Shown here piece after piece: positions 2,665-32,456 of a DNA stretch of 32,456 nt. The stretch's first letter is position 1, and every line of letters begins with the position of its first letter. Under the pieces are notes generated by a model. It saw only the letters and a list, made by a program, of their open reading frames with translations, was not told the DNA's origin and made no database searches. The stretch is from Vicinamibacteraceae bacterium (GTDB lineage Bacteria; Planctomycetota; Phycisphaerae; Phycisphaerales; UBA5793), in assembly GCA_011525805.1 (NCBI GenBank), contig WYBR01000106.1:1-32456 (forward strand). Direction: 5' to 3'. Made by a program: the position numbers and the translations under genes.

Positions 2665-4224
2665 TCACGGCTGAATCCGCGCCGTTCGGAACGGCGTCTT
2701 GACCGAATCAACCCCGCCCGGCCCGCGGCGGATGACGGCCTGCATCACCACGGTCGTCAGCGGCGCGTTGGGGGGGATGGTAATTGTTAACTCTGCGACT
2801 CCATTGCTGTCGGCCACGGCGCTGCCGATGAGTTGAATAGGGTCGACCAGGTCGAGCGTGATCCCGCCGAGTTGGCGGATGCCGACGCTGTTGCCGGCGC
2901 CCTCGCGGGAGTAGAGAAAGTAAACCCGCTCGCCGGGCTGGGCATCGGTCACGGTCATCGTCGCCGGCCGGCCGCGCTTGAGGGGCGGGAGTTCCAGCAG
3001 AGGGCCATGGAAAGGCGTGACGTTCATCATCACATCCATGCCGGAAACGTGTCCCTCAATCAGGTCAATGCTCCCATCGCCGTCAAGGTCGGCGGTCGCC
3101 ATGGACGGTCCCCCGAAAGTTCCCATGCCTGTGAACGTAGGCGGCGCGAACTCAAAGCCGCCGTGGTTCTCGACGCTCCAGAGATCGCCCCCAGCCTTTA
3201 CGATGACGTCGAGGTCGCCATCGGTGTCGAGGTCGCCGACGGCGACCTCTGCAATGATGAGTGCGTCAGGAACAATGAGTGGGGCGTGCAGGTTGAATGC
3301 GCCGCCGAAATCCAGACTCTCGATGGGAAGGAGTTCAAGATCATCCTCTGGGTTATCAAGTCGCAAGGCGGCCAACACGAGGTCGAGATCGCGATCACCA
3401 TCCAGATCTCCCAATCGCAGAGATACCGGGTGAGGATCCTCGCCCCACCATCCTCCGCCATAGGGCAGGACGATCGTGTGTCCGTAGGGAAAGGCGCCCT
3501 GTCCGTCGTTGTACAGTATTCGAACCTGGGCCTCATAAAGTTTCCAGCCGTACATGGAGTCGAATGCGTCATCCTTGCTCAGCACCGCGAGGTCGGTATC
3601 GCCGTCGCCGTCGATGTCACCCGTGACGAGGCTGACGTTGTTGATCCAAGGAAGCGATGCAACTTCGCCGGGAACAAACTGCCCCCCCTCATTGCGGTAA
3701 ACGCGCACCATTGGCGAGGAGGCTCGCTCGTCGACGACGATGAGGTCCGGGTGCCCGTCGCCGGTGACGTCCGCCACTTCAAGGGAGGCGACGCGACGAG
3801 GCATTGGGACGACCTCGAATCGCTTGGCGCCGCCGTCCCCGCGGCCGTACATCACCTGGAGCGAGCATGCACTGCCGAGCGTGCGTATCCAGATGAGATC
3901 GCTGTGACCATCGCCGTCAAAGTCGCTGGCGCGAATGGCGCTGAGCGCCTGCATAGGCTGGTAGAGCGAACCAAGTCGGGAGAAGGTGCCATCGCCCCGG
4001 TTGCGAAAGACGAACGTGGATTCAATCCGCTCACAGACGACCACGTCGCGCCAGCCATCCCCGTCCATGTCTGTGACCGCGACTCCACCGACACCGGCAG
4101 CCAGCGGGTAACTTTCGGGCTGACCAAACTGAATCTGTCCGATGGCCGCCTGGGCTGTTGGAATCCCCAGTCCGGCCAGGACAAATATCGAGCGCCCCCG
4201 GAGTCTGTCATTGCCTTCGTTCAT
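2665..4224 (-). CDS. Secreted FG-GAP/VCBS seven-bladed propeller protein with C-terminal Ig-like module
   Basis: A 519-residue exported protein. The N-terminus has a basic stretch and a hydrophobic core ending in Ala-Gln-Ala-Ala, a plausible Sec signal peptide. Seven FG-GAP/VCBS repeats follow, each with a DxDxDGxxD-type calcium loop (for example DMDGDGWRD and DFDGDGHSD), as expected for an integrin-alpha-like seven-bladed propeller. The last 111 residues (nt 2668-3000) form a separate beta-rich module with PGERVYFLYS, LDLVDPI, IPPNAP and DSVKTPFRT, shared with its neighbour and, more distantly, with other exported proteins here. It lies 36 bases after the paralogous gene at 4261-5808, so the two form an operon. 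The role is probably extracellular binding or surface structure; the ligand is unknown. Confidence 0.88.
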   Translation of the reverse strand: MNEGNDRLRGRSIFVLAGLGIPTAQAAIGQIQFGQPESYPLAAGVGGVAVTDMDGDGWRDVVVCERIESTFVFRNRGDGTFSRLGSLYQPMQALSAIRASDFDGDGHSDLIWIRTLGSACSLQVMYGRGDGGAKRFEVVPMPRRVASLEVADVTGDGHPDLIVVDERASSPMVRVYRNEGGQFVPGEVASLPWINNVSLVTGDIDGDGDTDLAVLSKDDAFDSMYGWKLYEAQVRILYNDGQGAFPYGHTIVLPYGGGWWGEDPHPVSLRLGDLDGDRDLDLVLAALRLDNPEDDLELLPIESLDFGGAFNLHAPLIVPDALIIAEVAVGDLDTDGDLDVIVKAGGDLWSVENHGGFEFAPPTFTGMGTFGGPSMATADLDGDGSIDLIEGHVSGMDVMMNVTPFHGPLLELPPLKRGRPATMTVTDAQPGERVYFLYSREGAGNSVGIRQLGGITLDLVDPIQLIGSAVADSNGVAELTITIPPNAPLTTVVMQAVIRRGPGGVDSVKTPFRTARIQP

Positions 4225-4260
4225 GATGGCGTCGCCTTCCGTATCCTTCTGACGATCCGG

Positions 4261-5808
4261 TCAATCCTGAATGAGCGACGTCCTGAAGGGTGTCTTGACC
4301 GAATCCACTCCGTCCGGCCCGCGACGAATGACGGCCTGCAGCGAAATGGGCCCTAGCGCAGCATTCGCGGGGATGCGACGGCGCAGCACCGCGACTCCTT
4401 GTGCGTCCGCCCGAGCCGTGGCAAAGTGGATGATGGGGGCGCGAAGATCGAGCGTCATTCCGCCGAGCGCTTGCTGGCCCCGGGTTCTTCCGACCCCGGC
4501 CGCACTGTAGAGATACTCAACGCGCTCTCCCGGTCGAGCGCCATCGACGACGAATGTCGCCGACTGGCCCCGCACAAGCGTCGAAGACTCAAGCCGCGGC
4601 CCCCGGAGCGGTGTCTGGTTGAACAGAACGGCGAATCCCGTCGAGCCTGAATGCATCAGATCGAATTGCCCGTTGCCGTCTAGATCCGCAATGCTCAACA
4701 TGGAGCCGAGCATCGTGGTTGGAAAGGGGCTCATGCCCTCGAACAAAAACCTCCCGGCATTGCGCACGACATACACGCCTCGAATCGAGCCCGTCGCAAA
4801 GACGACGTCGAGGCGACCGTCCGTGTCGATATCCGCGAGTGCAAGCGCTTCCGGCCAGCCTTCGCTCGCCCGATGGGTGGCGGCATTGGACAGTCGCCCC
4901 CCGTCGTTCTCCAGCATCACAAACTCATCAGGCCCGGGATCATTCCCCGGGCTTCCCGCGACAACGACATCCACATCGCCATCGCCGTCCAGATCGCCCG
5001 CAGTCATCGCGTGGGCCACGATGTCGTTCACATCCCACGGCAGAGCGATCTCAGACCCGAGCCGAAAGGGGGTCTGGCGATCATTCATGAGAAGCGATAC
5101 ATTGGAGCCCTTGACGTTCTTGTAGCGGTAGGAGTAGATGTACTGAAATGTCGCCGCAATATCGACATCGCCGTCATTGTCAAAGTCGCCCGGCGCAAAC
5201 GCCTGGAGTCCGTAGTCCGGCAGGTCATACTCGAACAGGCGCGTCAGCGCGAACGTGCGATCTCCCTGATTGATAAACGCATCGACGGTCGCCGGCTCAG
5301 CAGAGAAGACCACATCCTCCAGCCCATCGCTGGTCAAATCCCAGACGACCGCCGGTACGTTCTGGAAGCCGGGAAACGCGGTTTCGACGATTTCGCCGGA
5401 ACGGCCGTCACCTGCGTTGTACCACACCGACAGCACATAGGTGCGATCTTCGCGCCGATCGAACCAGACCAGGTCGACGTGCTGGTCGCCATCCATGTCG
5501 GCCGCGGCCAGATTCCAGATGGAGCGAAAAGGGATCGCCGTTTCGGGATGGAGCTGACCGCTCCCGTTGTTGAAGTAGATGTGGATGGCGCTGCCGCCGG
5601 TTACGACGACATCCACATTGGCATCGCGGTCGAAATCGGCCGAGACGAGGTAACCCGCCCGCCCCGTGTCCGTGTATCGCACCGGATCGCCGAACCGGAT
5701 CGGTTGCGCGTTCGCGACGACACCTACGGCCGACACTCCCAGGCCCGCCGCTGAAAGGCCGGGCATCGCGCACGGGATCCTCCCTCGTCTCTGGCGTCGC
5801 CCGGGCAT
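4261..5808 (-). CDS. Secreted FG-GAP/VCBS propeller protein, tandem paralogue
   Basis: A 515-residue protein with a twin-arginine-free, Arg-rich n-region, a hydrophobic stretch, and likely cleavage near VANAQP. It has seven FG-GAP/VCBS calcium-loop repeats (DFDRDANVD, DMDGDQHVD, DFDNDGDVD, DLDGDGDVD, DIDTDGRLD and two weaker ones). It ends in the same module of about 110 residues as its neighbour (nt 4264-4590: PGERVEYLYS, LDLRAPI, IPANA, DSVKTPFRT). The start at 5808 is well supported by AGGAGGT at 5814-5820 and a promoter just upstream. The two propellers are clearly duplicates whose C-terminal module is better conserved than the propeller, suggesting that it does the common job (export, anchoring or assembly) while the blades diverged. 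Confidence 0.9.
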   Translation of the reverse strand: MPGRRQRRGRIPCAMPGLSAAGLGVSAVGVVANAQPIRFGDPVRYTDTGRAGYLVSADFDRDANVDVVVTGGSAIHIYFNNGSGQLHPETAIPFRSIWNLAAADMDGDQHVDLVWFDRREDRTYVLSVWYNAGDGRSGEIVETAFPGFQNVPAVVWDLTSDGLEDVVFSAEPATVDAFINQGDRTFALTRLFEYDLPDYGLQAFAPGDFDNDGDVDIAATFQYIYSYRYKNVKGSNVSLLMNDRQTPFRLGSEIALPWDVNDIVAHAMTAGDLDGDGDVDVVVAGSPGNDPGPDEFVMLENDGGRLSNAATHRASEGWPEALALADIDTDGRLDVVFATGSIRGVYVVRNAGRFLFEGMSPFPTTMLGSMLSIADLDGNGQFDLMHSGSTGFAVLFNQTPLRGPRLESSTLVRGQSATFVVDGARPGERVEYLYSAAGVGRTRGQQALGGMTLDLRAPIIHFATARADAQGVAVLRRRIPANAALGPISLQAVIRRGPDGVDSVKTPFRTSLIQD

Positions 5809-5831
5809 CCGGCACCTCCTGCCCCCTGCGC

Positions 5832-5861
5832 ATCATACCGCAAGGCCGAGGTCGGTTGCAA
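5832..5861 (-). promoter_or_regulatory. Sigma70-like promoter of the FG-GAP operon
   Basis: On the minus strand, TTGCAA (5856-5861) and TATGAT (5832-5837) are separated by 18 bases. The predicted start near 5825 gives a leader of about 17 bases containing the AGGAGGT ribosome site. It is one of the best promoter matches in the window. Confidence 0.6.
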
Positions 5862-5963
5862 GGGGTCTTTTCAAATTCCGGTGAGAAAAATTGCAGCAGT
5901 GATCTGCGTCGGAAAGCTCCAGACGGGGCGACCGGCGGCAAGGTCTGCTAATGGAGTACTGGG

Positions 5964-6060
5964 TCCGCCAATATGGGCGGATTCTGCGACGATCCTCGTC
6001 CGCGGCTCGGTGCGCTCCAGATTAGACGATGTAGTGGAGCGGGATTTGGTCTGCCAAATC
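5964..6060 (-). terminator. Two hairpins downstream of the GNAT gene, possible terminator
   Basis: GATTTGG (6043-6049) pairs perfectly with CCAAATC (6054-6060) around a 4-base loop, and TCCGCC (5964-5969) pairs with GGCGGA (5976-5981). Both lie within 140 bases after the minus-strand stop at 6104. Neither has a T-tract, so intrinsic termination is uncertain. The 5809-6103 gap otherwise holds only the FG-GAP promoter. Confidence 0.3.
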
Positions 6061-6103
6061 AGGTGGATGCGACGACCTGCCCTTCAGGATGACTCCCTGT
6101 CCT

Positions 6104-7003
6104 TCAGATTGACATCATCATGGCCTGGACGCGCCGTCCCGCCTCGCCCGCCTTCAAGGCCAGGCGGTGGGTGTCCTGGTGTCGGGGGCCGGCGAGGAAG
6201 CGGATTCGGGTGATTCCGGCCCTCTTGGCCGCCTGGGCCGCCTCCTCCATCACCGCCACGTTGACCCAGGTACGCCGGGCACCCGGAACGACGACCCTCG
6301 ACTCCACCAGGACGCCGCCCCTTCGATCGCGCACCGCGAGCAAGAAGCCGCAGACCCGTCCATCCATGATCGCCACGCGGCTCATGTGCGGATCAAACGG
6401 ATACCACCCCTTGCCGCGCAGGCGCGTTTCGAGGCGGCCGGCGTCGCCGCCGATCTGCTCCATTTGCAGTTGGATCACTTCGCCCAGCGGCGACTCGCTC
6501 AGCGGCAGGACGCGGGCGCTGATGGGCACGCGGCCGTGCGCCGTCAGCGCATCGTACATCGGGGTGAGCATGTCGAGGTACGCCTGCAGGGCGACCTGGT
6601 AGTGCGTGAGTTTCGCGTTCACCTCGAATCCCAGCGACTCCCAGAAGCGCTGCTCCGATGAGTCGCACGGCACGCTGTCCCAGGCGTAGAGGGCCTTGCG
6701 GCCGAGGCGGCGCGCCGTCGCTTCCGCGCGGCGCAGCAGCGCCGAGCGGACCGCCGGCGCGCCGCCATCGCCATCGTCGAGCAGCAGAACGGGACAGCCC
6801 TGCACTTGCATCGGAACCGGATAGAGGTCGATGACCAAAGCGCCGCGCCGGTCGCCGCCAGCGTCCCGCGCCAGCCAGAGTTCATGCGGTTCCGGCAGGC
6901 CGGCCAGCGCCGGCCAGCGAGCGGTCAGCGCCCGCCGCGCCTCATCGTCGGCAAGCGCGATTTCCAGATTGTGTTGATCCAGGGCTGCCGGAGGATCAGG
7001 CAT
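6104..7003 (-). CDS. GNAT-like acetyltransferase family protein
   Basis: A predicted soluble protein of 299 residues. The middle part (LLRRAEATARRLGRKALYAW, then a W..LGFEV segment) resembles the end of a GNAT fold, where the helix after the acetyl-CoA loop is followed by 'fyeklGF'. A second half (RVAIMDGRVCGFLLAVRD ... ITRIRFLAG) reads like a second, more divergent GNAT domain, so the protein may be a tandem GNAT. I cannot point to a clean Q/RxxGxG/A acetyl-CoA loop, so activity is not assured. ATG 7003 is preferred because a TAGGAT hexamer lies 8 bases upstream; the ORF can extend to 7072. It is divergent from the membrane protein at 7141. Substrate unknown. Confidence 0.6.
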   Translation of the reverse strand: MPDPPAALDQHNLEIALADDEARRALTARWPALAGLPEPHELWLARDAGGDRRGALVIDLYPVPMQVQGCPVLLLDDGDGGAPAVRSALLRRAEATARRLGRKALYAWDSVPCDSSEQRFWESLGFEVNAKLTHYQVALQAYLDMLTPMYDALTAHGRVPISARVLPLSESPLGEVIQLQMEQIGGDAGRLETRLRGKGWYPFDPHMSRVAIMDGRVCGFLLAVRDRRGGVLVESRVVVPGARRTWVNVAVMEEAAQAAKRAGITRIRFLAGPRHQDTHRLALKAGEAGRRVQAMMMSI

Positions 7004-7011
7004 GGCGACGA

Positions 7012-7017
7012 ATCCTA
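7012..7017 (-). promoter_or_regulatory. -10-like TAGGAT close to the GNAT-like gene
   Basis: TAGGAT on the minus strand ends 8 bases before ATG 7003, with no Shine-Dalgarno between; consistent with a leaderless start. A weak match on its own. Confidence 0.28.
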
Positions 7018-7090
7018 CGCGCGGCGTCCCCGGCCACGAGATCAGGGCTTGGGCCGCCCGCCGCGCCGCCATCCGCCCCGCCGAGCGGGG

Positions 7091-7096
7091 TACACT
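7091..7096 (+). promoter_or_regulatory. -10-like TACACT upstream of the coiled-coil membrane protein gene
   Basis: TACACT lies 17 bases before a possible ATG at 7114 and 44 bases before ATG 7141. A transcript starting near 7103 would suit either start. No good -35 is seen. Confidence 0.33.
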
Positions 7097-7140
7097 TCAC
7101 GAGACGCCGGGATGTGCAGCGATCCGAGAGGGCGTGGGGC

Positions 7141-8670
7141 ATGTCGAGTTTCGGCTGGCACTTTGACCAACACTCCGCGCGTTACAACGACGCCCGCACC
7201 GCGCTCTCGCGCACCGCGGCTCTGTCGATCGTCTTTGCCGTGGTCGTGCTCGTCAAGGTCGTCGCGCCGTTCGCGCAATTGACGGAGGATCGCCATCAGG
7301 CCGCGGAGCAGAAGACGGCGCAGATTGCTGAGCGCGACGGGGCCAGCCGGCGGTCCGCCGACCTGAGCGAGATCAGTGCGCAGTTCGACGCGGTCGTTCA
7401 GGCCATTAAAGCACAGCCGTGGAATGCGAACGTGGCCGACCTGAAAGTCCGCTTTCGCGAACTCGGCAACTCCTACGACGCGATCCGGCCGCTGCCGCCG
7501 ACGAAGATTCTCGAGGCTTACAAGACGCGCGACGAGGTGCGCAGCCGCGAGGTGCTCCAGACCGAGCAGCTGTCGCCGCGAGAGCGACTTCAGCAGCCTC
7601 GACTGCGCGCCCTTGAGGAGCGCTCGATTCAACCGGGCGAGGGCGGCACGCGCCTCACCCGCCGTCCGCCGCCGGATGAAACCGGCGCGATGGCCCCATC
7701 GGACAGTGAGGAGACGGATCAGCGCCTCCTCGTCGCCGAAGCCGCCGATCTGCTCCGCCTCAACCCTGAGCGCGTCAGCCAGGCCATCAGGCAGAATCCC
7801 GCCGACTGGCACCGAACGGTCTATGAGGAGGCGGCCGCGGAGGAAGCCAAGGCCGCGGTCCGGAGCATCTTTGACGTTATCGCCGACCGCGTGCTCCACG
7901 CGATCCAGCGACTGCTCGCCCTGCCCGCGACGACGACGGCCCTGCCCGACCTGCCGCAGCAACTCAGCGACCTGACGACGACCGTCGAAAGGTGGCGCGA
8001 TGATCGCCTTACCGACCTCGAGTGGTACCGCACCGCGCTGGGCAAGGAGGATGAACTCCATCGCCTGACGCTTGAACTGGTGGACGCGACGCGCCCGATC
8101 GGAGAGGCGCTGGCCGCGCAGTGGAGCGAGGCGCAGCGTCAACACGCCGCGTTGGAAAAGGAACTCAGCACCGCCAACGATCGAATCGCCGAACTCGAGC
8201 AGGCGGTCGAAGCGATTGACCAGGAACTCGAAGGCCACCTGCCGGAGTGGATGCGCGGCCTCTTTGCGGCGCGCGAGATGATCCAACTCTACCCCTTCGT
8301 GATTCTCGGCCTGCTCGCGTTCATGGGCGTCACCGCCCTTGCCGCCGATGGGCATCATCGGGAGATGCTCCGCATCCTCAAGGAAAAGGGAGAGACGGTC
8401 GATCCCTCCGCGACGGGTTCGATCTGGCTGCTGCGACAGTCGGGGTTCGGCGCCCGCGCGACATCGGCGGCGCTTTACCTCGGCGGGATCGCCGTCTTCT
8501 GGTTCCTCTTCGAGCAGGGGGCCAGCCATCTGCGGACGTGGGCGGCGCTGGATCCGGCCGCGGCGTGGCTGAATGTCGATGCCGCCCGGATCATCCTGTG
8601 GCTGGGCCGGGGCGCGTTCATCGCGGCCGCCGCATTCACGGCCGCGATCATCCTGCGCGGAAGAGATTGA
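7141..8670 (+). CDS. Membrane protein with long coiled-coil region, function unknown
   Basis: About 509 residues from ATG 7141; an ATG at 7114 would add nine residues, and a GAGAGGG-like site before 7141 favours the shorter form. One membrane helix lies at about residues 24-44 (AALSIVFAVVVLVKVVAP). A long charged region follows, rich in Arg, Glu and Gln, with a coiled coil near the end of the soluble part (ALEKELSTANDRIAELEQ and following). Three C-terminal membrane segments then occur, at roughly residues 382-402, 440-460 and 480-500. The large soluble part probably lies on one side of the inner membrane. I recognise no catalytic motif or named family. It is convergent with the two-component system, and a palindromic repeat lies between them. 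Confidence 0.72.
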   Translation: MSSFGWHFDQHSARYNDARTALSRTAALSIVFAVVVLVKVVAPFAQLTEDRHQAAEQKTAQIAERDGASRRSADLSEISAQFDAVVQAIKAQPWNANVADLKVRFRELGNSYDAIRPLPPTKILEAYKTRDEVRSREVLQTEQLSPRERLQQPRLRALEERSIQPGEGGTRLTRRPPPDETGAMAPSDSEETDQRLLVAEAADLLRLNPERVSQAIRQNPADWHRTVYEEAAAEEAKAAVRSIFDVIADRVLHAIQRLLALPATTTALPDLPQQLSDLTTTVERWRDDRLTDLEWYRTALGKEDELHRLTLELVDATRPIGEALAAQWSEAQRQHAALEKELSTANDRIAELEQAVEAIDQELEGHLPEWMRGLFAAREMIQLYPFVILGLLAFMGVTALAADGHHREMLRILKEKGETVDPSATGSIWLLRQSGFGARATSAALYLGGIAVFWFLFEQGASHLRTWAALDPAAAWLNVDAARIILWLGRGAFIAAAAFTAAIILRGRD

Positions 8671-8687
8671 AGGTCAGCCCGCATGTA

Positions 8688-8726: not shown

Positions 8727-8738
8727 GTTTCGCCCGGA

Positions 8739-11972: not shown

Positions 11973-14375
11973 TCAGTTGACCGTCGCCTCGACGACGTTG
12001 CTCTTGTTCTCGAACTGTGCCGCCTGGAACCACACGGTGCGCCCCGAGGCGTTGGGCGGAATCGGAAGCGTCCACGAGACGCTGCCGCTGCCGTCGGCCC
12101 GGCGGGCGTTTCCGGCCTGAATCGGGCTGCGCAGGTCGAGCGTGACGTTGAGCCCCGGCACATAAGTGCTGCCGAGTCCGCGGATGCTGTAGGCGAGGTA
12201 GGTCAGTTCGTTCGGGTTCGCGTCGGTGACGTCGAACTGGCCATTCTGTCCGGCATTGAGCGGGCCAACGGCGAGCGTCATGCCTCCGCCGCCGCCGCAG
12301 CCCCGCCGCGCGACGAGCACGGCGTCGACGCCCGCCTCCACGACGGAGTCGTTGGGGACGTCCACCGCGGTGAAGCGGATCTTCATCGTCGCGGTCGGCG
12401 CGAGGATACTGCTGACCAGAAACTCGTTGACCACCCACTGCGTGGACTGGTTGCCGATGTTCTCGACCGTGGTCCACGTCGAGCCGTTGTCATTGGAGAG
12501 ATCGACGGTGAAGCGGTCGGCCGTGCCGTTCACGCTGCGGAACCAGCGGGCGTAACTGATCGTGGCGTCGCCGCCGCTGAGGTCGAAGGTGGGGGAGATG
12601 AGCCGCGTCGGCCCGCCGTCGACGTCGGAATTGCCGCTGCGGTTGGCCGTGAGGAAGCACGACCCCGAGCCGTCGTAGTCGCTCGGCGGGTCTTCGCGCG
12701 CTCCGCCGCCCGCAGGCACGCCGCGCTCCCACGCGCCGTCCTGGAGGTTTTCGTTCTGAACGGTCCAGCCCTGGTTGGTCTGGAAGTCGTCCGCGAAGAC
12801 GATGTCGACGAAGATGGAGTCGGCCTCGTAGAACTCCGTCGGGGCGCCCACGGGCGAGGTGTGCTGGACGTTGTCGGTCGAGTAGGCCTCGAAGTAGAAC
12901 TGCACGACTTCGCCGCAATCCGCGGCGGGCAGCGTGGCGCGGAAGAGGTTGCCTCCCTGCGGCGCCATGTTGGACGCGACGAAGGGGCCGCTCGTGCCCA
13001 CGCGCGCGTACGACTTGGCGCTCCCCGTCTGGTAGGTGCCCCCGTTGACCGGAGTGATCTGAACGTCCACGGTCGCGCCGGTGTTGGGCTCAACGTACGT
13101 CGGCACGCCGTTCGGGAACGCAAAGACCAGGCGGTTGGAAAGGAACTTGGCCAGTTCCATCGCCCCGACGAAGCACTCCTGCGATGCGGGAATGATCTGG
13201 GAGGGCGGGAGGAGGAAGCCGAACTGCCCGGTGTCGCGCAGTTCGAAACTCATGCCCCACGCGCCGCCTTCGACGTAGGCCCAGTCCAGCGTCACGCCGG
13301 AAGCCGGGTAGATGGTCGTATAGGTCGGGCCGTGGACCCACGCGGTGCCGTGGAGATCCTCCATCACGTTCTCCATGTTGGCGCCGATCATCTCAAACGT
13401 CGCGTGATCGGGCGGCAACTGGCTCGTGTAGCCGTAGGGCTGGAGGATGAGTTGCGAGTAGGAATGAACGTCGATGAACCCGGCGAAGTTGGGCAGGGAG
13501 AGTTGCCAGTCGCGCATGACCTGCGACTCGGGCTCAGAGAAGGGCGCCGTGCCGCGATAGGTCTCGCTGCCGGAGTTGCTGCTCGATCCTTCGCCGCCCC
13601 AGCCGACGCTGTAGTTGCGGTTGAGGTCCACGCCCCAGGTTCCGTTGCCGTTATTTCGGCGGTTCTTGCGCCACATCCGGTCCGTCTGCGTGTAGGCGAA
13701 ACCATCAGGGTTCGTGACGGAGACGATGTGGAAGTTGACGCGGTCCACCAGTTGAGTGAGCACCGGATCGCTGCCGTAGGACGTGAGCAGCGTTTCGATC
13801 ATGTAGGGCATCGCCATCGAGGTGATCCACTCGCGGGCGTGGATGGTCCCGTGGATGACGAAATCGGGCTTGCCGTTGGGTCCGCCGGCGCCGGAGATCC
13901 GGATGCCGCGGATCGGCCGCCCTTCGAGGGAGTTGCCGACGACGAAGGTCTGCGCGAGGTTGGGATACGAGTCCGCCAGGCCCTGCACGTACTGCTCGAT
14001 CTCGGCGAGGGTGTGATACTGGTCGTACCACCCGGCCAGCTGGCCGACCTGCTTCTCGGCGTCGATCAGCGGCTGCACGTCTTCAATCAGCACGTGGTAT
14101 TCGACCCCTGACGCGGCGAGGGCGTCGAGCGCGTCGGGCGGAATGCGGTAGTCAACGAGACCGATCCCCGTGCCGTGCGACCAGCAGTCGGGGCTGAGGG
14201 TCTCCATGATCCGCAGTTGCCGCGCGTTCTTGATGTTGGCGCGGACGACCTTGTGCCCGTCGTACCGGACCGGCGGCTGAGCGGCCTGGTCCTGCGCGGC
14301 TGCCTCGACCGTGCCGACGTTCATCGCCGCGACGCATGCCGCCAGCGTCAGAGCCGTAGCGAATCGACGAATCAT
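11973..14375 (-). CDS. Secreted M14 zinc carboxypeptidase with C-terminal beta modules
   Basis: 800 residues. A Sec signal peptide (MIRRFATALTLAACVAA ... VEAAA) is followed by a propeptide-like region and an M14 catalytic domain at about 115-415. Zinc ligands H179 and E182 (HAREW) and H304 (DVHSY), and catalytic E378 (SFELRDTG), are all present, as are the substrate-binding motifs NPDGF and DLNRNY. At the position that sets specificity in pancreatic carboxypeptidases (I255 of A, D255 of B) there appears to be Leu in SGVTLDW, suggesting a preference for hydrophobic C-terminal residues. A MAM/jelly-roll-like region (about 560-690) and a final Ig-like module of about 100 residues (nt 11976-12281, ending in SNVV) follow; the latter resembles the FG-GAP and SBBP ends. 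Start ATG 14375 has GAGGAGG at 14383-14389. It probably digests external peptides. Confidence 0.95.
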   Translation of the reverse strand: MIRRFATALTLAACVAAMNVGTVEAAAQDQAAQPPVRYDGHKVVRANIKNARQLRIMETLSPDCWSHGTGIGLVDYRIPPDALDALAASGVEYHVLIEDVQPLIDAEKQVGQLAGWYDQYHTLAEIEQYVQGLADSYPNLAQTFVVGNSLEGRPIRGIRISGAGGPNGKPDFVIHGTIHAREWITSMAMPYMIETLLTSYGSDPVLTQLVDRVNFHIVSVTNPDGFAYTQTDRMWRKNRRNNGNGTWGVDLNRNYSVGWGGEGSSSNSGSETYRGTAPFSEPESQVMRDWQLSLPNFAGFIDVHSYSQLILQPYGYTSQLPPDHATFEMIGANMENVMEDLHGTAWVHGPTYTTIYPASGVTLDWAYVEGGAWGMSFELRDTGQFGFLLPPSQIIPASQECFVGAMELAKFLSNRLVFAFPNGVPTYVEPNTGATVDVQITPVNGGTYQTGSAKSYARVGTSGPFVASNMAPQGGNLFRATLPAADCGEVVQFYFEAYSTDNVQHTSPVGAPTEFYEADSIFVDIVFADDFQTNQGWTVQNENLQDGAWERGVPAGGGAREDPPSDYDGSGSCFLTANRSGNSDVDGGPTRLISPTFDLSGGDATISYARWFRSVNGTADRFTVDLSNDNGSTWTTVENIGNQSTQWVVNEFLVSSILAPTATMKIRFTAVDVPNDSVVEAGVDAVLVARRGCGGGGGMTLAVGPLNAGQNGQFDVTDANPNELTYLAYSIRGLGSTYVPGLNVTLDLRSPIQAGNARRADGSGSVSWTLPIPPNASGRTVWFQAAQFENKSNVVEATVN

Positions 14376-14586
14376 CACGCAACCTCCTCGTGCTTGGTGT
14401 TCTGGTGCGACACAGGCTGAAGGGTACCCCCGACGGCCGCCCGCCCGCCTTGACCCGGAACCGATCGCCCCGCGACGGCATGGCGCCGCGCGTGCCGCTC
14501 CGGGCATGGTTTACAACCCGCGCCGAGTCCGGTTTCATCCATGAATCGGGGGCAGTCGCTGCTTTTCGGACTCTCGGGATCGCCCC

Positions 14587-15592: not shown

Positions 15593-16018
15593 ATGGCCGT
15601 CCGCATCCAGCGCGATACCTCGCTTGAGCCGCGCCTGGAGATCATGCCGCTTCTTGACGTGATCTTCCTCCTCCTCGCGTTTTTCATCTACGCGATGGTC
15701 CTGCTCATTCGCGCCGAGGTGCTGCCGGTGCAGTTGCCCGAGTTGAGCCAGGGCCGGCCGGCGACGCGCAGCGAAGCGATCACCATCACCTTGGATGCCA
15801 AAGGGGCGCTCTTCCTCGATGCCGTCCCGACCGATCTCGATTCGGTCGTCGCCGCGCTCAAGGCACAAGTCGAACTCAAGCCCGACGCCCGCGTGTACCT
15901 CGCCGCCGACATGCAGGGAGACGCGGACCGCCTGCCCGTCTTCATCGAACTCGTCAACCGCCTCCGAGGCTCGGGGATTCACGAGTTTTTCATCGTCGGC
16001 CGGCCCGGTGAGCAGTAG
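15593..16018 (+). CDS. ExbD/TolR-family biopolymer transport protein, no ExbB partner adjacent
   Basis: A 141-residue inner-membrane protein with a short cytoplasmic head, one membrane helix (PLLDVIFLLLAFFIYAMVLL) containing the conserved membrane aspartate of the ExbD/TolR proton channel, and a periplasmic domain of about 90 residues with the family fold (ITITLDAKGALFLD ... RVYLAADMQGD). ExbD normally works with ExbB/TolQ as a proton-driven motor that energises TonB or links inner and outer membranes. No ExbB or TonB gene is adjacent, so the partner must be elsewhere. ATG 15593 is chosen over the 57-base longer ORF because the family domain begins directly after it and a TACAAT hexamer lies 5 bases upstream. 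I cannot separate ExbD from TolR. Confidence 0.88.
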   Translation: MAVRIQRDTSLEPRLEIMPLLDVIFLLLAFFIYAMVLLIRAEVLPVQLPELSQGRPATRSEAITITLDAKGALFLDAVPTDLDSVVAALKAQVELKPDARVYLAADMQGDADRLPVFIELVNRLRGSGIHEFFIVGRPGEQ

Positions 16019-16063
16019 CCGTCGCTTTTTCGCAATTCATCGCCCGGATTGGCGGTTTTGGAC

Positions 16064-16092
16064 TTGCGGTCCGCCCGCGGCTGCGGTATACC
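16064..16092 (+). promoter_or_regulatory. Candidate promoter of the SBBP gene pair
   Basis: TTGCGG (16064-16069) and TATACC (16087-16092) have the ideal 17-base spacer. The predicted leader is about 80 bases and carries a GGAGGAGG ribosome site shortly before ATG 16182. Confidence 0.45.
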
Positions 16093-16181
16093 TGTGCCAT
16101 CGGGCGCCGGTTGGCGTGCCGCGGGCGGGTCTGGGTTCATCCGGTCCGGTGATCCGTGCCGGCGAGCGGAGGAGGCGGAAA

Positions 16182-18842
16182 ATGAAGCAATCAGCCAATG
16201 CATGGTTGGGTGCGTGCGTCAGCGCAATCGCGGGGTTCGCGGGCGGCTTGCCGGTCTGCGGCGCGCCGCCCTCACCCGCCGCGGCCGAGCGTTTCGACCT
16301 TGGCCTGCGCGGCGTCTACTTCGTCGAGAATCAGGGGCAGTGGAGCGATGCGTCGGTTCATTACGGACTGAAGTCGCGCGGCCTTGACGTCGCCTTCCGC
16401 GAATCATCCTTCACGATGCACCTGTCGCGCGAGGTGGAACGGGCGTCCCGCCCGTTCGAGCACGCGATCGCGTCCGAAGCAAGCCCGAAGCGTGAGCGAG
16501 GCTGCTCCGCATTCGATGATCCTGACCCACTCCCTCACGGTCGGGGCTCGCTTCGTGAGCCGACGGCGTACGAGCATCTCACGCTCACCGTTTCCTTCCC
16601 CGGCAGCAATGCGGTGACGCCGCGCGGCGCCCAGCCGCAGACGGCGAAGTTCAACTACTTCGTCGGCGGCGAAGGTCGCGGCATCGCGAGCAACGTGCCT
16701 TCGTTCGGCGCCGTCATCTACGAGAACCTCTACAACGGCATCGACCTGCTCGTCTGCGGCAACGACGACGGCGTGATGAAATACGAGTTCCACTGCGCGC
16801 CCGGCGCGGATTACTCGCAGATCAGAATCCATTACGACGGCATCGACCCGCTGTGCGTCAACGCCGACGGCGATCTTGAGATCGCAACAAGTTTCGGCAC
16901 CCTGCGCGACGGCGCGCCGATCGTGTGGCAGGAGGATGCCGGTGGAACTGAAGCCGGTGGAACGGTCGTCCCGGCCATTGAACAGCAATGTGGCGGCACG
17001 GCCGTCCCGACCGTTCAACAGGAATCTGGTGGCACAGCCGTCCCGGCCGTTGACTCCGGGAGCATGGGCGTCCCGCCCGTCGATCAATCAGCAGGGGCGA
17101 TGACCGGGCGAGACGCCCGTTCCACCGGCGAGCCCGGCAACCCCACCCTCTCCGCCTGCTTCGAACTCATCGATGCCTACACCTACCGCATGGCCCTCGA
17201 CGGTCCCGTCGATCCCGCTTGCTCGCTCGTGATCGATCCGGATGTCGAGTGGATGTACTACTTCGGGGGGACTGGCAGCGACTACGTGCAGACCATGGCG
17301 GTTGACCGCGACGACCACATTCTGCTCACCGGGTGGACGGACTCAATCGACTTCGACGGGCGAGGGAACGAGCATTTCGGCGGCGCGTTCGACGCCTTCC
17401 TGCTCAAAGCCGATCCTGCCGGCGCACTTCAGTGGATGTCGTTCTTTGGCGGCTCCGATGCCGAGCGGGGCTACGGACTCGCCGTAGGCAGCGGCGGCGA
17501 GGCGTTCGTCGTCGGGCCGACCCGCTCTGTGGACTTTCATGGGCGAGCGAATGCTCACTTTGGCGGATCGTACGATGGCTTCGCACTCAAGGTGGATGAA
17601 AGCGGCCTCCTTCAGTGGATGATCTACGTCGGCGGAACCGGTGACGAGAGCCCCAACGCCGTGGTGACAGACCACGCCGACTTCGCCGTCGTCGCGGGCG
17701 AGACCGATTCAATCGACTTCACGCACCGGAGCAACGAGTTTCGTGGCGGAATCTCAGACGCCTTTGTGATCCGCATCGACACGGCCGGCTCTCCAGACTG
17801 GATGGCATACGTCGGTGGCGGTGGTCAGGACGGCGCACTGGGCGTCAATGCGGCGGCCCAACAGCGCCTCTTGTTGACAGGGTTGACGGACTCTCCCGAC
17901 TTCGACGGCCGGACCAACTCTCCATACGGCCAGTATGACATCTTCGTGAGTCGACTCGATCCCGCGGGCGCGGTGGAGTGGATGACGTACTTCGGAGGCA
18001 GTCGGCACGACATGGGCTACCTCCTCCTTCCCGACGTCTCGGGTGATGTCTTCGTCGCCGCCATGACCGAGTCGGAGGATTTTCACGGCCGCGGCAACTC
18101 CTATTACGGCGGCGAGCGCGATGCAGTCATTCTTCGCCTCAGCCCCATCGGCACGCTGAAGTGGATGCTCCATATTGGCGGCTCCGGCCGTGAACGCGCG
18201 CGCGCCTTGGCCCGTCAGCGCGACGGCAGCCTGCTCCTCTCGGCGGGGACCACTTCCGTCGACTTCAGCGGGCAAATCAACCCGCATCACGGCGGCGAGT
18301 ACGATGCGTGGGTCGCCAGCGTCGATCCTGACGGATCGCTGCGATGGACCACGTTCCTCGGGGGCAGCGGCGATGATTGGGGCCGTGGGGTGCATGCTCT
18401 CGACTCCGGCCACATCCTCGTCGGCGGCATGACCACCTCGCCCGACTTCGAGGGGGGTCAGAACACCTACCACGGCGGAGACCTCCGTGACGGCTTTGTC
18501 GCACGGCTCCTGCCCGAGCCCGGCCCGCAATTGGGCGTCGCCGCCACCTGTCCCTCCGGCGGCCCCATCCAGATCGAATGGTCCGGGGCTTCGCCCGGCG
18601 GGCAGGTTGCGCTCATCTTCGCCCGCAACACGGGTTCGTTCATCATCCCCAACAACCGCCCCTGCGCCGGGACTCAACTCGGCCTCGGGTCCAACCAGAT
18701 TCAACTCGCCTGGCAGGGCGACGCCGGCGCCGACGGCTCGCGAGTCCTGAACACCACCGCCGGCCCCGGCGCCTGCGGCGGTTACCTGCAACTGCTCGAC
18801 CTCGCAACCTGTGCCACGAGTAATGTCGTCCAAATCGACTGA
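16182..18842 (+). CDS. Secreted SBBP beta-propeller protein with Cys-containing C-terminal module and repeat inserts
   Basis: 886 residues from ATG 16182 (GGAGGAGG upstream). After a signal peptide comes the N-terminal beta domain usual in SBBP proteins (FVENQGQW ... PGSNAV ... FNYFVGG ... KYEFHCAPGADY), then seven SBBP repeats of about 50 residues with the pattern WM.Y.GG.G.D ... DF.GR.N..GG..DAF. The last 104 residues (nt 18528-18839) form an Ig-like module with four cysteines (TCP, PCAGT, ACGGYLQLLDL, TCATSNVV). Compared with its tandem paralogue it has two extra in-frame stretches, at about residues 83-131 and 252-322, made of repeat-like DNA. It is probably displayed outside the cell as a binding scaffold. 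The next gene follows almost without a gap. Confidence 0.92.
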   Translation: MKQSANAWLGACVSAIAGFAGGLPVCGAPPSPAAAERFDLGLRGVYFVENQGQWSDASVHYGLKSRGLDVAFRESSFTMHLSREVERASRPFEHAIASEASPKRERGCSAFDDPDPLPHGRGSLREPTAYEHLTLTVSFPGSNAVTPRGAQPQTAKFNYFVGGEGRGIASNVPSFGAVIYENLYNGIDLLVCGNDDGVMKYEFHCAPGADYSQIRIHYDGIDPLCVNADGDLEIATSFGTLRDGAPIVWQEDAGGTEAGGTVVPAIEQQCGGTAVPTVQQESGGTAVPAVDSGSMGVPPVDQSAGAMTGRDARSTGEPGNPTLSACFELIDAYTYRMALDGPVDPACSLVIDPDVEWMYYFGGTGSDYVQTMAVDRDDHILLTGWTDSIDFDGRGNEHFGGAFDAFLLKADPAGALQWMSFFGGSDAERGYGLAVGSGGEAFVVGPTRSVDFHGRANAHFGGSYDGFALKVDESGLLQWMIYVGGTGDESPNAVVTDHADFAVVAGETDSIDFTHRSNEFRGGISDAFVIRIDTAGSPDWMAYVGGGGQDGALGVNAAAQQRLLLTGLTDSPDFDGRTNSPYGQYDIFVSRLDPAGAVEWMTYFGGSRHDMGYLLLPDVSGDVFVAAMTESEDFHGRGNSYYGGERDAVILRLSPIGTLKWMLHIGGSGRERARALARQRDGSLLLSAGTTSVDFSGQINPHHGGEYDAWVASVDPDGSLRWTTFLGGSGDDWGRGVHALDSGHILVGGMTTSPDFEGGQNTYHGGDLRDGFVARLLPEPGPQLGVAATCPSGGPIQIEWSGASPGGQVALIFARNTGSFIIPNNRPCAGTQLGLGSNQIQLAWQGDAGADGSRVLNTTAGPGACGGYLQLLDLATCATSNVVQID
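16431..16575 (+). repeat. In-frame repeat-derived insert 1 in the first SBBP gene
   Basis: This stretch is absent or replaced in the paralogue at the equivalent point. It begins with a GGGCG-TC-CCGCCC palindrome (16439-16454 region) and encodes SPKRERG and PLPHGRGS, residue strings I associate with dispersed GC-rich repeats in planctomycete genomes (from memory, not verified). Reading frame is kept. Confidence 0.55.
16968..17099 (+). repeat. Tandem 36/30-bp coding repeats (GGTAVPAV-type) in the first SBBP gene
   Basis: Units begin with GTCCCG at 16968, 17004, 17040 and 17070; the first two are 36 bp, the third 30 bp, the last partial. They encode VPAIEQQCGGTA-like segments, then MGVPPV, and are followed by GGGCGAGACGCCCGT. 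The whole block (about 16938-17150) sits between two conserved blocks that are nearly adjacent in the paralogue. Confidence 0.75.
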
Positions 18843-18880
18843 TGCGCTACGCGGCGAGTGCCGTCGAAAGGAAGGGATCC

Positions 18881-21310
18881 ATGAGCCGTTCTCCGTCTTG
18901 CAGTCACTCCGCCGCGTGGATCGCGGTTTTGACGCTCACTCCAGCCATTGCGATCGCAGGTGTCGCGGCCGACGGAGCGCCTGAGCCAGATGAGGTCGTC
19001 AGGCGCGCGATGCGCACCGCGCACTTTATCGAGAACGTGGGTCAATGGACCGATCCCATGGTTCGGTTCGGGTTGAGATCAAGGGGGCTGGCGGCCGCGT
19101 TCTGCGATTCGACTGTGTCAATTCGCCTTGCGCAGGGCACCGGCTCGGCGGTGGCGGCTGAGAGGCGGGGATCCCTTGAGCCGTTCGAGCCCGATCTGAA
19201 CCACCGGATCAGCGGCGCAGGAGGCTCGTCCGACCCGGTTGGGAGCGCCTCGCTGCTTGTGACATTTCCGGGATCGAACTCGGTGCGGCCCGTCGGTGCC
19301 ACGCCTCGGGCTGCGAAGTTCAACTTCTTTGTCGGCGGCCCGGATCGCAGCGCCGTGGCCGCCGCGCCATCCTTCGGTTCTATCGTCTACCACGATCTGT
19401 ATGAGGGGATCGACCTGCACCTCATGGCGGGAGATGGGGGGGCGCTCAAGTATGAGTTCCATTGCGCGCCCGGTGCGGACTACACCCAAGTGCGCATTCG
19501 CTACGACGGCATCGAGTCCTTGAGCATCGATGAGCGTGGAGATCTGTGCATTGAGACTACGATGGGTCAACTGCGCGATCGTGCTCCCGTAGTTTGGCAG
19601 GCCGATGCGTCCAAGTCCCGCTGCGCCCGCTTCAGGCTGATCGACTCGTTTACTTACACGATTGACGTGCCCGGGACGGTCGATCCTCGGTTGCCGCTGA
19701 CCATCGACCCGGAAATCGAGTGGATGATCTACCTCGGGGGCTCGGGTGCGGACGTGACACTCCAGGTTGTCTTGGATGCTTTCGGAAACGCACTGGCCTC
19801 AGGGAATTCGGCTTCCCTGGACTTCGTGGGCGGAAACAATTCCAATCATGGGGGCGACTGGGACTCCACGGCCGTCAAGGTCAGTCCGTCCGGCGAACTT
19901 CTGTGGATGACCTACCTCGGCGGCAGCGGCGACGACCGCGGCAGGGGCATCGCCGTCAATCCGCAGAATCGCATATTCGTTTCCGGTTTCACCTCCTCGC
20001 CTGACTTTGAGGGGCGCGCCAACTCGTACCACGGCGGAGACCACGACACCTACCTCCTGGAACTCGACGGCGAGGGAGCGCTTCAGTGGATGAAGTATTT
20101 CGGTGGAACGGGCGACGATCGCGGCCGCGTGGTCACCCTGACGGAGCAGGGCGAGGCCATGATCACCGGTGAGACGTCTTCCGCTGACTTCGTCGGCGGG
20201 CGGAACGCCTACCACGGCGGCGACTGGGACGCCTTCGTGCTCAAGACCGATCTCAGCGGCGAAGTTCAATGGACCACGTACTTCGGTGGAAGCGATGCCG
20301 ACCTCGGCTACACGATGGGCATCGACGCGCACAACGACGTTTTTCTGACGGGCTACACCTGGTCGACCGACTTCGCCGGTCGAACGAACGCGAACTACGG
20401 CGGCTGTGACTGCTTCGTACTGAAGTTCAAGGCCACGGGCGACCTCGCGTGGATGTCCTACTTCGGGGGGAGTCTTGATGATGAGACTTGGTCCATTGCC
20501 GTTGATGCGCGCGGCGAGGCCGTGGCGGCCGGACGGACGGCTTCGACCGACTTTGTCGGCAGCAACAACCAGTACCTCGGCGGGCCATCGTGCGGAGTTG
20601 TCTTCAAGGTCAGCGCTTCGGGGGCGTTGCAGTGGATGACTTACTTTGGCGGCAGCGGCGAGGACGGGGCGCGGAACATCATCCTCGATCCGCGAGGTCA
20701 CGCCCTCGTCACAGGCCACACCGATTCAATCGACTTTGAGGGTCGCATCAACGAGCCAGCCGGTGGTCCGAACGACGGACACCTGTTGCGCATTGATCCG
20801 TGGGGCAGCCTGCTCTGGATGATGTACCTGGGCGGGAGCAGCCTCGACTTCGAGTTCGGCATCGTCCTTGACGGGGAGGATCACGTGCTCGTCGCCGGTC
20901 GATCGACGTCAAGTGACTTCCTCGGGCGCATCAACTCGCACCGCGGCGGACTCGACGGCACCTTGACTCGTGTTCGCCTCGAGCGAAGCGATCCTCGCCT
21001 CAGCGTGGATGCCGCCTGTCCGGAGGGAGGACCGATCACCATCACATGGTCCGATGCCACGCCCGGCTCGAACGTGGCGCTTGTGTTCGCAAGAGGACTC
21101 GGGTCGTTCACCATTCCGCCGCAGTACCCCTGCGCGGGCACCACGCTTGGCCTGAATGCGGATCAGATTCAGGTGGCGTTCCAAGGCGGCGCCGGCGTAG
21201 ATGGATCCCGACGAGTCGGGGCAAACGCCGGCCCGAACGCCTGCGGCGGCTACCTGCAACTGCTCGACCTCGCGACCTGTGCGACGAGCGACGTGGCGCG
21301 CGTTGAGTGA
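18881..21310 (+). CDS. Secreted SBBP beta-propeller protein, tandem paralogue
   Basis: 809 residues from ATG 18881, which has AAGGAAGGG at 18868-18876 and gives a clean signal peptide (AAWIAVLTLTPAIAIAGVAA). An alternative ATG at 18842 overlaps the stop of the preceding gene (TGATG) and would add 13 residues with translational coupling. Architecture is that of its neighbour: an N-terminal domain (FIENVGQW, PGSNSV, FNFFVGG, KYEFHCAPGADY), seven SBBP repeats and a four-cysteine C-terminal module (nt 20994-21307: ACP, PCAGT, ACGGYLQLLDL, TCATSDV). Neither repeat insert of the neighbour is present. The GGYLQLLDLATCATS end is almost identical in both, more so than the blades, arguing for selection or gene conversion on the module. 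Confidence 0.92.
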   Translation: MSRSPSCSHSAAWIAVLTLTPAIAIAGVAADGAPEPDEVVRRAMRTAHFIENVGQWTDPMVRFGLRSRGLAAAFCDSTVSIRLAQGTGSAVAAERRGSLEPFEPDLNHRISGAGGSSDPVGSASLLVTFPGSNSVRPVGATPRAAKFNFFVGGPDRSAVAAAPSFGSIVYHDLYEGIDLHLMAGDGGALKYEFHCAPGADYTQVRIRYDGIESLSIDERGDLCIETTMGQLRDRAPVVWQADASKSRCARFRLIDSFTYTIDVPGTVDPRLPLTIDPEIEWMIYLGGSGADVTLQVVLDAFGNALASGNSASLDFVGGNNSNHGGDWDSTAVKVSPSGELLWMTYLGGSGDDRGRGIAVNPQNRIFVSGFTSSPDFEGRANSYHGGDHDTYLLELDGEGALQWMKYFGGTGDDRGRVVTLTEQGEAMITGETSSADFVGGRNAYHGGDWDAFVLKTDLSGEVQWTTYFGGSDADLGYTMGIDAHNDVFLTGYTWSTDFAGRTNANYGGCDCFVLKFKATGDLAWMSYFGGSLDDETWSIAVDARGEAVAAGRTASTDFVGSNNQYLGGPSCGVVFKVSASGALQWMTYFGGSGEDGARNIILDPRGHALVTGHTDSIDFEGRINEPAGGPNDGHLLRIDPWGSLLWMMYLGGSSLDFEFGIVLDGEDHVLVAGRSTSSDFLGRINSHRGGLDGTLTRVRLERSDPRLSVDAACPEGGPITITWSDATPGSNVALVFARGLGSFTIPPQYPCAGTTLGLNADQIQVAFQGGAGVDGSRRVGANAGPNACGGYLQLLDLATCATSDVARVE

Positions 21311-26236: not shown

Positions 26237-26444
26237 TGATCTCCGTCTCGCGTGCGCCTCAAGGCAGTTCGAGGAGGTTTGCGGCATCCGCCGCAGGGAG
26301 GTGGCCTCCCTTGCGCGGCTCGAATAACCTATGCCCGGAGCCGGCAGGTGATCCACTCTGACCTTCCCACGGCGCGCCGAAAGCCGGTGCGAACGGATGA
26401 TGGGCCGGCCGCGCTCCGACCCGGTATCATCCCCCATCCTCCCG

Positions 26445-28453: not shown

Positions 28454-28458
28454 GGACC

Positions 28459-29313: not shown

Positions 29314-29324
29314 CGGCCGGCCGC

Positions 29325-30080: not shown

Positions 30081-30182
30081 GGTGCCGCTCCTTCGCTCCG
30101 CTGCGTTTCGACCGGGCGTCCGCTCGATCGCCGCGAAGAAAAGGGTAGTCCCGGCGGGGCGGCCGAGTCGCGGCCGCACTCC

Positions 30183-31367: not shown

Positions 31368-31374
31368 GGGCGGC

Positions 31375-31380
31375 ATTGTA
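31375..31380 (-). promoter_or_regulatory. -10 hexamer TACAAT just before the transporter gene
   Basis: TACAAT on the minus strand ends 7 bases before ATG 31367 with no Shine-Dalgarno between. It predicts a leaderless transcript and decides the start over the overlapping ATG 31376. Confidence 0.45.
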
Positions 31381-31424
31381 GATCGGCGAATCAATCCGCC
31401 GCGGCGCGCATCTGCGGGCGCCGG

Positions 31425-32105
31425 TCAGAACGGCCGGCGCGCCGGGTTGACGACGAGGTTGTCGCGGCCGAGGATGAGCAGGTCGGCGATCTCCACCGCT
31501 TCGGCGAACGACTCGCGCGCCTGGTCGAGATTGAAGCAGTCGGCGAGCACTTGCCCCTTCTCGAGATGCTCGATCGTCGGGATCGCGTCTCCGCAGAGGA
31601 GCAGCGTGTAGCGCGGCAGGGCGAGCAGCAGTCCCGCGGAGCCCGGCGTTCGACCCGGCAATGGAAAGAGATCGACGCGATCTGCCAGGTGGTCCGGCGC
31701 TGGCTCGAACCGGCGCAGCACGTTGATCTCCTCGCGCAGCATCTCCGCCTGCTCCGGTTCGCCTTCATCGCGCGCCTGCTCGAAGCCGGCGAGGAGGGAA
31801 CGGCCGACGGCTTCACGCTCTGCTTCCGCGAGCCACCACGTCGCTTCGTCGAAGCGGCCAAGTCCTCGCCGAAGGTCAGGACGAAAGGAGGTGAGAAAGA
31901 CGTGAGTGATGCGCTCGGCTCCGAAGCCGCAACGCTCGCGCAGCCGCGCTTCGAGAATCTCGCCGGGCAGCGATGGATCGACGAGAATGCACCGGTCGGC
32001 GGCCCGGATGAGCGTCGTCGTGGCGTGCGCGGTGCGCACCTCGCCCCGCTCGTTCCACAGCGGGTTCGCCGCCAGCGTGCCGATGCTGATGATGCGGTAG
32101 TCCAT
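31425..32105 (-). CDS. Metallo-beta-lactamase-fold protein lacking the metal-binding histidines
   Basis: 226 residues with the order of elements of a metallo-beta-lactamase fold: TTLIRAADRCILVDPSLP, a THVFLTSFRPDLRRG block, PLPGRTPGSAGLLL, LLLCGDAIPT and a final GRDNLVV. In active members these read HxHxDH, PGHTPGS, GD and a final GH. Here the ligands are S73, R75, D77, L78, R152, D173 and R214: every histidine is replaced and only the aspartates remain. The regular replacement with an intact reading frame argues for a maintained non-metal protein, not decay. It is not exported. It lies 57 bases before the transporter gene on the same strand. Function unknown. Confidence 0.85.
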   Translation of the reverse strand: MDYRIISIGTLAANPLWNERGEVRTAHATTTLIRAADRCILVDPSLPGEILEARLRERCGFGAERITHVFLTSFRPDLRRGLGRFDEATWWLAEAEREAVGRSLLAGFEQARDEGEPEQAEMLREEINVLRRFEPAPDHLADRVDLFPLPGRTPGSAGLLLALPRYTLLLCGDAIPTIEHLEKGQVLADCFNLDQARESFAEAVEIADLLILGRDNLVVNPARRPF

Positions 32106-32251
32106 TGCGAGTCCGGATCAGGTCGGTCGAGGTCGGATCGTCCCGGGCAGAGAATAGGCGGCCGAAGCGCGTCTCAGCGCCATCCTCCCGGTGGCAGGTC
32201 CGTTTCAAGCCCGGACCGCCGCGGGTGTGTGCATGGTGCGACTCTCGGCAC

Positions 32252-32286
32252 CAGAAAACAAACCCCGCCTCCTCGCGGAGGCGGGG
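32252..32286 (-). terminator. Strong rho-independent terminator of the right-edge gene
   Basis: A perfect 10-bp stem, CCCCGCCTCC (32263-32272) with GGAGGCGGGG (32277-32286), closes a TCGC loop. On the minus strand it is followed by TTTGTTTTCTG. It starts 45 bases after the stop of the partial gene. The rest of the 32106-32331 gap shows no gene. Confidence 0.88.
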
Positions 32287-32331
32287 CGCTGATCCTCGTC
32301 CGGATCGAGTTCGAGGCGCTTGCCGCGCCGA

Positions 32332-32456
32332 TCAGATCGGCCCGGTCGCGTTGCTCGTCGAGCAGTCGTTGGTCTTGATGCACTGGACCCACTTGCCGCA
32401 GGCGCCGGTGCCCACCGTCGCGGTCACCTGGCCCTGTCCGCCGTTGGTTCCGATGA
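32332..32456 (-). CDS. 3' end of a secreted-type protein with the Cys-containing C-terminal module (partial)
   Basis: Only the last 41 codons are in the window; the gene continues beyond the right edge. The visible end, GQGQVTATVGTGACGKWVQC followed by IKTNDCSTSNATGPI and TGA, lines up with the tail of the SBBP proteins (ACGGYLQ ... TCATSNVV): ACGxxxQ, a cysteine before TSN, and the stop soon after. It is probably another exported protein with the same C-terminal module. A strong terminator follows. The upstream domain cannot be known from this window. Confidence 0.72.
   Translation of the reverse strand, partial: IGTNGGQGQVTATVGTGACGKWVQCIKTNDCSTSNATGPI

Follow-up and report, generated by a model that had tools for sequence, protein, structure and literature searches.

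A predicted Ig-like C-terminal module on at least 230 exported proteins of a planctomycete, a probable surface-targeting or attachment domain

The stretch of DNA analysed here (the window, 32,456 nucleotides) is the entire contig C92 (WYBR01000106.1) of assembly GCA_011525805.1 (G000), a genome named Vicinamibacteraceae bacterium and placed by GTDB in the planctomycete order Phycisphaerales, family UBA5793 (f1). Six of its genes encode proteins that end in the same module of about 100 residues, predicted to be immunoglobulin (Ig)-like, and across the whole genome no fewer than 230 different exported proteins are closed by it. The module probably represents an as yet undescribed means of bringing proteins to the cell surface or into the matrix, and we consider it rather probable that this planctomycete family uses it as its general C-terminal domain for surface targeting or attachment. 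In the best reading it would work, by analogy, like the Ig-like C-terminal domain (CTD) of the type IX secretion system (T9SS) without being a member of that group. Protein sorting and display are poorly known in planctomycetes, the surfaces of which are often complex, and the module labels, in each genome, hundreds of exported proteins that otherwise lack annotation, a large set that one model would annotate.

One module family with three cysteine classes

The original prediction, made from the letters of the window alone, had named six related C-terminal tails, and all six are present at the places given. The cysteine-free form (A) closes FG-GAP protein 1 (2668..3000, minus strand, gene 2665-4224; E 2.8e-57 in the own-genome search with the A alignment), FG-GAP protein 2 (4264..4590, minus strand, gene 4261-5808; identified by sequence comparison) and the M14 carboxypeptidase (11976..12281, minus strand), where it directly follows a choice-of-anchor J domain. 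The four-cysteine form (B) closes DUF7948-SBBP protein 1 (~18519..18839, plus strand, frame 15795-18842) and DUF7948-SBBP protein 2 (~20984-20987..21307, plus strand, gene 18842-21310). The sixth tail, at 32335..32454 on the minus strand, comprises the last 40 residues of a cysteine-form module (IGTNGGQGQVTATVGTGACGKWVQCIKTNDCSTSNATGPI, then stop), and its gene is truncated by the contig end since the window is a whole contig. The earlier coordinates were mostly right; the starts of the two SBBP tails have been moved to the positions given above (20994, previously proposed for the second, is out of frame), and the right-edge tail now carries the coordinates and strand stated here.

The A-form tails of the window display 58% identity between the FG-GAP pair and 41% and 37% between the carboxypeptidase and each FG-GAP protein, while the B-form tails display 65% identity between the SBBP pair and 36-40% between the right-edge fragment and the SBBP proteins. 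Similarity between A and B is marginal when the window tails are used alone, with one pair at E 1.5e-5 (six-sequence database) and most pairs at the level of shuffled sequences. At the level of profiles, built from 87 A and 113 B sequences, hhalign aligned the two forms with a probability of 98.9 and an E of 3e-17. The A profile finds 77/113 B sequences at E < 1e-3, and 21 genome copies were recovered by both searches. Because of the profile-profile match and the copies common to both searches, A and B can securely be regarded, on sequence grounds, as one family; together with the alike predicted folds described below, this bears out the proposal of a single module behind both forms. Chance resemblance of the tails was ruled out by shuffles within each form and by the profile comparison between forms.

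An alignment of 220 copies contains four conserved cysteine columns, of which all four are occupied in 120 copies, two in 44 and none in 50. The two forms recognised previously both exist, but the family really comprises three classes, with 0, 2 or 4 conserved cysteines, and the two-cysteine class, which keeps the second and fourth cysteines only, bridges the other two. The first cysteine covaries with the third (phi 0.95) and the second with the fourth (phi 0.97), and we therefore infer disulfides C1-C3 and C2-C4. On a tree from which the cysteine columns were left out, cysteine class changes 7 times, compared with ~90 times with shuffled labels. The distance to the end of the protein is strikingly constant: four-cysteine copies have 9-10 residues after the fourth cysteine in 110/120 cases, and two-cysteine copies exactly 11 residues after the last cysteine in 38/44. 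The C-terminus of the module is thus length-fixed to about one residue, and its terminal strand follows the pattern ...[ST]SNVVxI-E/P-COOH.

Predicted structure

The AlphaFold2 model of the carboxypeptidase module (A form, 102 residues) displays nine strands, with a predicted local distance difference test (pLDDT) of 95.8 and a predicted TM-score (pTM) of 0.86, while the module of SBBP protein 2 (B form) was modelled with pLDDT 86.4 and pTM 0.77. Both models share their structural neighbours. These are Ig-like domains, and apoproteins of the neocarzinostatin type rank among the best of them (1nco_A; Z 9.7 for A over 90 residues at 2.7 Å, and 8.6 for B); adhesin repeats and Ig receptors are also among the neighbours found by Foldseek/VIA. 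Since these Z values are tied with those of many ordinary Ig domains, including KIR, Nir2 and adhesin repeats, only the fold class is claimed: the module is predicted to be an Ig-like β-sandwich. Comparison of the A and B models, which the original prediction had called for, thus revealed that both forms are predicted to fold alike. Searching PDB sequences with the A profile gave only weak neocarzinostatin-like matches (E 0.004-0.4; best actinoxanthin, E 0.0041), and the B profile gave no match. The Pfam model Neocarzinostat (PF00960) remained below its cut-off, its best result being 1/31 members at E 0.058, with 12.3 bits for a relative against a cut-off of 25. The module may resemble neocarzinostatin/macromomycin and bacterial Ig domains (Big_3_5) in fold and resembles them weakly in sequence, but falls below every curated cut-off. 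Neocarzinostatin and macromomycin apoproteins are single enediyne-binding proteins of actinomycetes rather than C-terminal modules.

Position, passengers and copy number

The genome of the window (4.54 Mb) contains at least 243 distinct module copies, 125 found with the B form only, 97 with the A form only and 21 with both (146 places matched with the B-form query and 118 with the A-form alignment). This number is a minimum because 18 of the listed copies, plus the one at the window edge, are cut at contig ends (for example on C79, C12, C59, C71, C38 and C131). About 4 such cuts would be expected; repeated modules break the assembly, hence the excess of copies at contig ends.

Where the stop codon is in hand, 234/237 own copies are C-terminal, lying within 27 residues of the stop; in three of the 234, the match extends beyond a stop. 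Elsewhere, in 67 loci of f1 and of many further Planctomycetota families, modules are C-terminal in 65/69 cases. Profile matches are thus rarely internal; mostly internal matches would have spoken against the original prediction. A signal-peptide-like start, scored by a home-made rule, was present in 197/211 complete module frames and in 35/99 control frames. The 171 body-bearing module proteins belong to 66 unrelated body families, including FG-GAP, SBBP/DUF7948, kelch, BNR and other propellers, subtilases, M14 and M28 peptidases, GSDH, multicopper oxidase, CHRD, CBM96 and β-helix proteins. The module therefore stands, as had been proposed, at the very C-terminus of unrelated secreted proteins. 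One body family can carry A modules in some members and B modules in others (for example 9 A and 7 B), so the two forms are interchangeable. Confinement to the C-terminus of many unrelated exported passengers fits a sorting or anchoring domain.

Two of the three internal modules, L061 (C1:22566-22862) and L074 (C8:7882-8169), precede similar Cys-rich C-terminal regions of ~115 residues, which are perhaps another type of anchor.

Distribution and exchange with dockerins and PEP-CTERM

The search for the module covered Planctomycetota genomes, viral contigs and plasmid records. The B profile finds it in bulk in 6/6 genomes of family f1 and has no match in 55 genomes of other families of the same order, while the A profile matches 49/294 Planctomycetota genomes, with a second bulk expansion in the distant family f61. 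Viral contigs and plasmid records gave no module match.

The bodies that carry the module include choice-of-anchor families B, J, O and Q (choice_anch_B, E 1.2e-106). NCBI choice-of-anchor families are defined by a variable C-terminal anchor. The choice-of-anchor B proteins of f1 end in the module, in its four-cysteine form in one paralogue and its A form in the other, and the orthologues in f61 and G003 end in module relatives, while those in the sister families f2 (L276, L277) and f5 (L285) end in dockerin repeats. Further orthologues, from other planctomycete families (L282, L292, L290 and L288, from G150, G045, G240 and G155, respectively), have different unnamed β-rich domains at their ends, terminating in SNA/SDA..., and two of these have weak matches to the A profile (E 2.7e-4 and 2.1e-3). 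These weak matches suggest a wider superfamily of planctomycete C-terminal domains.

Counts of the competing tags, which rest on short profiles and are approximate, follow the same trend. PEP-CTERM motifs number 3-17 per genome in f1, 0-144 in 15 sister genomes of the same order (at least 19 in 13 of them) and 0-2 in f61, while dockerins number 2-9 in f1, 1-92 in the sisters and 0 in f61. Judging from these and the module counts, each lineage tends to have one dominant C-terminal module. In f1, the module apparently takes the place of the dockerin and PEP-CTERM attachment tags of related bacteria, and the exchange with these tags on orthologous passengers of sister families provides a natural experiment on C-terminal anchors. 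Exosortase is present in f1 and absent in 4/6 module-rich f61 genomes, and is therefore not the partner of the module.

Comparison with known families and sorting signals

No Pfam, NCBIfam or PADLOC model credibly covers the module tails, and the module is undescribed in the open-access literature searched. The statement that the tails carry no known sorting signal held up, with no CTD, PEP-CTERM or dockerin model matching them. The closest analogue of the proposed mechanism is the T9SS, whose export signal is an Ig-like CTD with an essential signal in the last 22 residues (PMC4804311). The T9SS CTD (TIGR04183/TIGR04131) and, in its predicted fold, the module are both C-terminal Ig-like sandwiches of ~70-110 residues borne by many unrelated Sec-exported proteins. 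In contrast with the CTD, the module has no NCBIfam match, may contain up to two disulfides and occurs as stand-alone genes. An NCBIfam scan of five whole window proteins revealed no T9SS CTD match on the tails, the one weak T9SSA_dep_M6i match falling on an FG-GAP body, and membership of the CTD family is not supported: the predicted sandwich is shared, but no CTD sequence model matches. A search for the T9SS translocon SprA found 0/18 genomes positive, but the control genomes gave no match either, leaving this search without a positive control.

PEP-CTERM/exosortase is likewise a lineage-expanded C-terminal signal on diverse exported proteins, and is used by module-free sister genomes. However, it consists of a short motif, a transmembrane helix and a basic tail, whereas the module is a folded β domain of 100 residues that has no such tail, is matched by no PEP-CTERM model and reaches a Kyte-Doolittle (KD) hydrophobicity of 1.6 over 19 residues in only 10/220 copies. 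Membership is not supported, given the lack of PEP motif, transmembrane helix and basic tail and the absence of exosortase from most f61 genomes. The type I dockerin, which stands at the corresponding C-terminal position of the choice-of-anchor B orthologues in sister families, consists of two EF-hand-like repeats; the module is predicted to have a different fold and is not matched by the dockerin model PF00404 in Pfam scans, and it was not assigned to this family. MYXO-CTERM, GlyGly-CTERM and LPXTG are also many-to-one C-terminal tags on exported proteins (PMC11980579, PMC3237569). They differ from the module in combining a short motif, a transmembrane segment and a basic tail and in being processed by membrane proteases.

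Possible functions of the module

As a surface-targeting or attachment domain, the module would act as follows. Sec or Tat would export the passengers; in the oxidising envelope, the module would fold and form 0, 1 or 2 disulfides. A common receptor may then dock the last strand, with its free C-terminus of fixed length; this receptor could be an outer-membrane export or anchoring machine, or a surface or matrix partner, and some 230 proteins of unrelated bodies would be brought to the same place. Docking by way of this strand is putative, as is delivery to the surface or matrix. The earlier idea of an export, anchoring or matrix-assembly tag gains from the anchor position in choice-of-anchor proteins and the dockerin exchange in sister families, but the module is not only a tag, because ~25 copies are stand-alone exported proteins of ~130 residues, several of them in tandem arrays.

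Several observations weigh against this interpretation. No co-occurring machinery was found in the genomes compared, f61 having excluded exosortase, and the stand-alone secreted copies, some in tandem, are odd for a pure sorting signal. The fixed C-terminal length could follow simply from an Ig fold that ends there. In addition, f1 retains some PEP-CTERM and dockerin proteins, and both tags are scarce in some sister genomes (0 and 2 in G220; 9 and 6 in G309), and the replacement is therefore a trend rather than a rule.

The stand-alone copies are best accommodated by the strongest alternative, a structural or adhesive matrix domain, which we regard as a serious contender with a little over one chance in three. 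Such a domain would stay on the mature protein and bind a shared ligand (a polysaccharide, a stalk or sheath protein, or other modules), thus building an extracellular matrix in which proteins made of a signal peptide and a module, several encoded in tandem, would be bulk subunits or competitors. The dockerin that the module replaces is itself an assembly module, the adhesin repeats and Ig receptors among the Foldseek/VIA neighbours point the same way, and the bodies are enriched in β-propellers and secreted enzymes. Typical adhesive Ig repeats, however, differ from the module, which hardly ever lies inside a protein or recurs in it and has a strict, fixed C-terminus.

These last two features are better explained by a dedicated new export or anchoring system, in which the module would be a signal for secretion across the outer membrane that a translocon recognises and possibly cleaves, as happens to the CTD in T9SS. 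The resemblance to the CTD in kind of domain and in place (PMC4804311), the fixed C-terminus and the choice-of-anchor position are consistent with this possibility, which is tentative and on balance doubtful, as no co-occurring machinery was identified and stand-alone copies exist. Moreover, secretins occur in module-bearing and module-free genomes alike, so that a route like the type II secretion system is available to all. A related and equally speculative proposal is that Planctomycetota possess an undescribed sorting or anchoring system, with its own outer-membrane machinery, for which the module is the signal; it would serve ~5% of all genes of one family and would have expanded independently in a second. 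Thus, stand-alone copies favour matrix binding, while the fixed C-terminus and the near-absence of internal copies favour an export signal; if the latter is true, a new secretion route follows.

A third explanation denies the module any targeting role: it would be a neutral cap, serving folding or stability, that became widespread through gene duplication and domain shuffling. The lineage-specific expansion, the module-bearing paralogue families and the use of Ig folds as common extracellular spacers would agree with it, and where modules are more than 70% identical, their bodies are mostly related as well, as plain gene duplication would give. This explanation is nevertheless improbable in the light of the 66 unrelated body families, the restriction to the C-terminus, the dockerin exchange at the same position in orthologues, the distribution complementary to PEP-CTERM and dockerins, and the exchange of A and B forms on related bodies. 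It is very unlikely that the module binds small molecules or carbohydrates in the manner of neocarzinostatin/macromomycin: although, among solved structures, the enediyne apoproteins come nearest to it in sequence and fold (actinoxanthin and 1nco_A), the tied Z values and the single sub-threshold Pfam match argue against it, and ligand binding would not explain 66 different C-terminal passengers.

Module-bearing genes of the window and other observations

The two FG-GAP repeat exported proteins are encoded on the minus strand (2665..4224, Pfam FG-GAP_3 E 6.4e-41, and 4261..5808, E 1.1e-34). The M14 zinc carboxypeptidase (11973..14507, minus strand; Peptidase_M14 E 3.2e-87) comprises a propeptide, a choice-of-anchor J domain (NF038128, 31.6 bits against a cut-off of 30) and the module, with a signal-peptide start at ~14378. 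The exported DUF7948 and SBBP β-propeller proteins lie on the plus strand. The first occupies an open frame at 15795..18842 (DUF7948 E 2.3e-42), its true start probably lying inside the frame, at the internal ATG of MKQSANAWLG, and the second extends over 18842..21310 (DUF7948 E 2.6e-40).

Elsewhere in the genome, ~130-residue proteins comprising a signal peptide and a module are encoded in tandem arrays at L104 (C38:68012-69529), L098 (C32:3221-4354), L189 (C131:13738-14653) and L146 (C82:31163-32898), with a spacing of ~400-500 nucleotides. The usual GspD secretin has only a few N domains. Locus L305 (G000:C121:14000-28500; frame + 3-8627) encodes a giant secretin of 3765 residues, with 27 Secretin_N stretches (E 2e-284) and one C-terminal Secretin domain, and equally giant secretin frames are present in other genus-mates and in the module-free genomes G002 (4754 residues) and G251 (4834 residues) of the same order.

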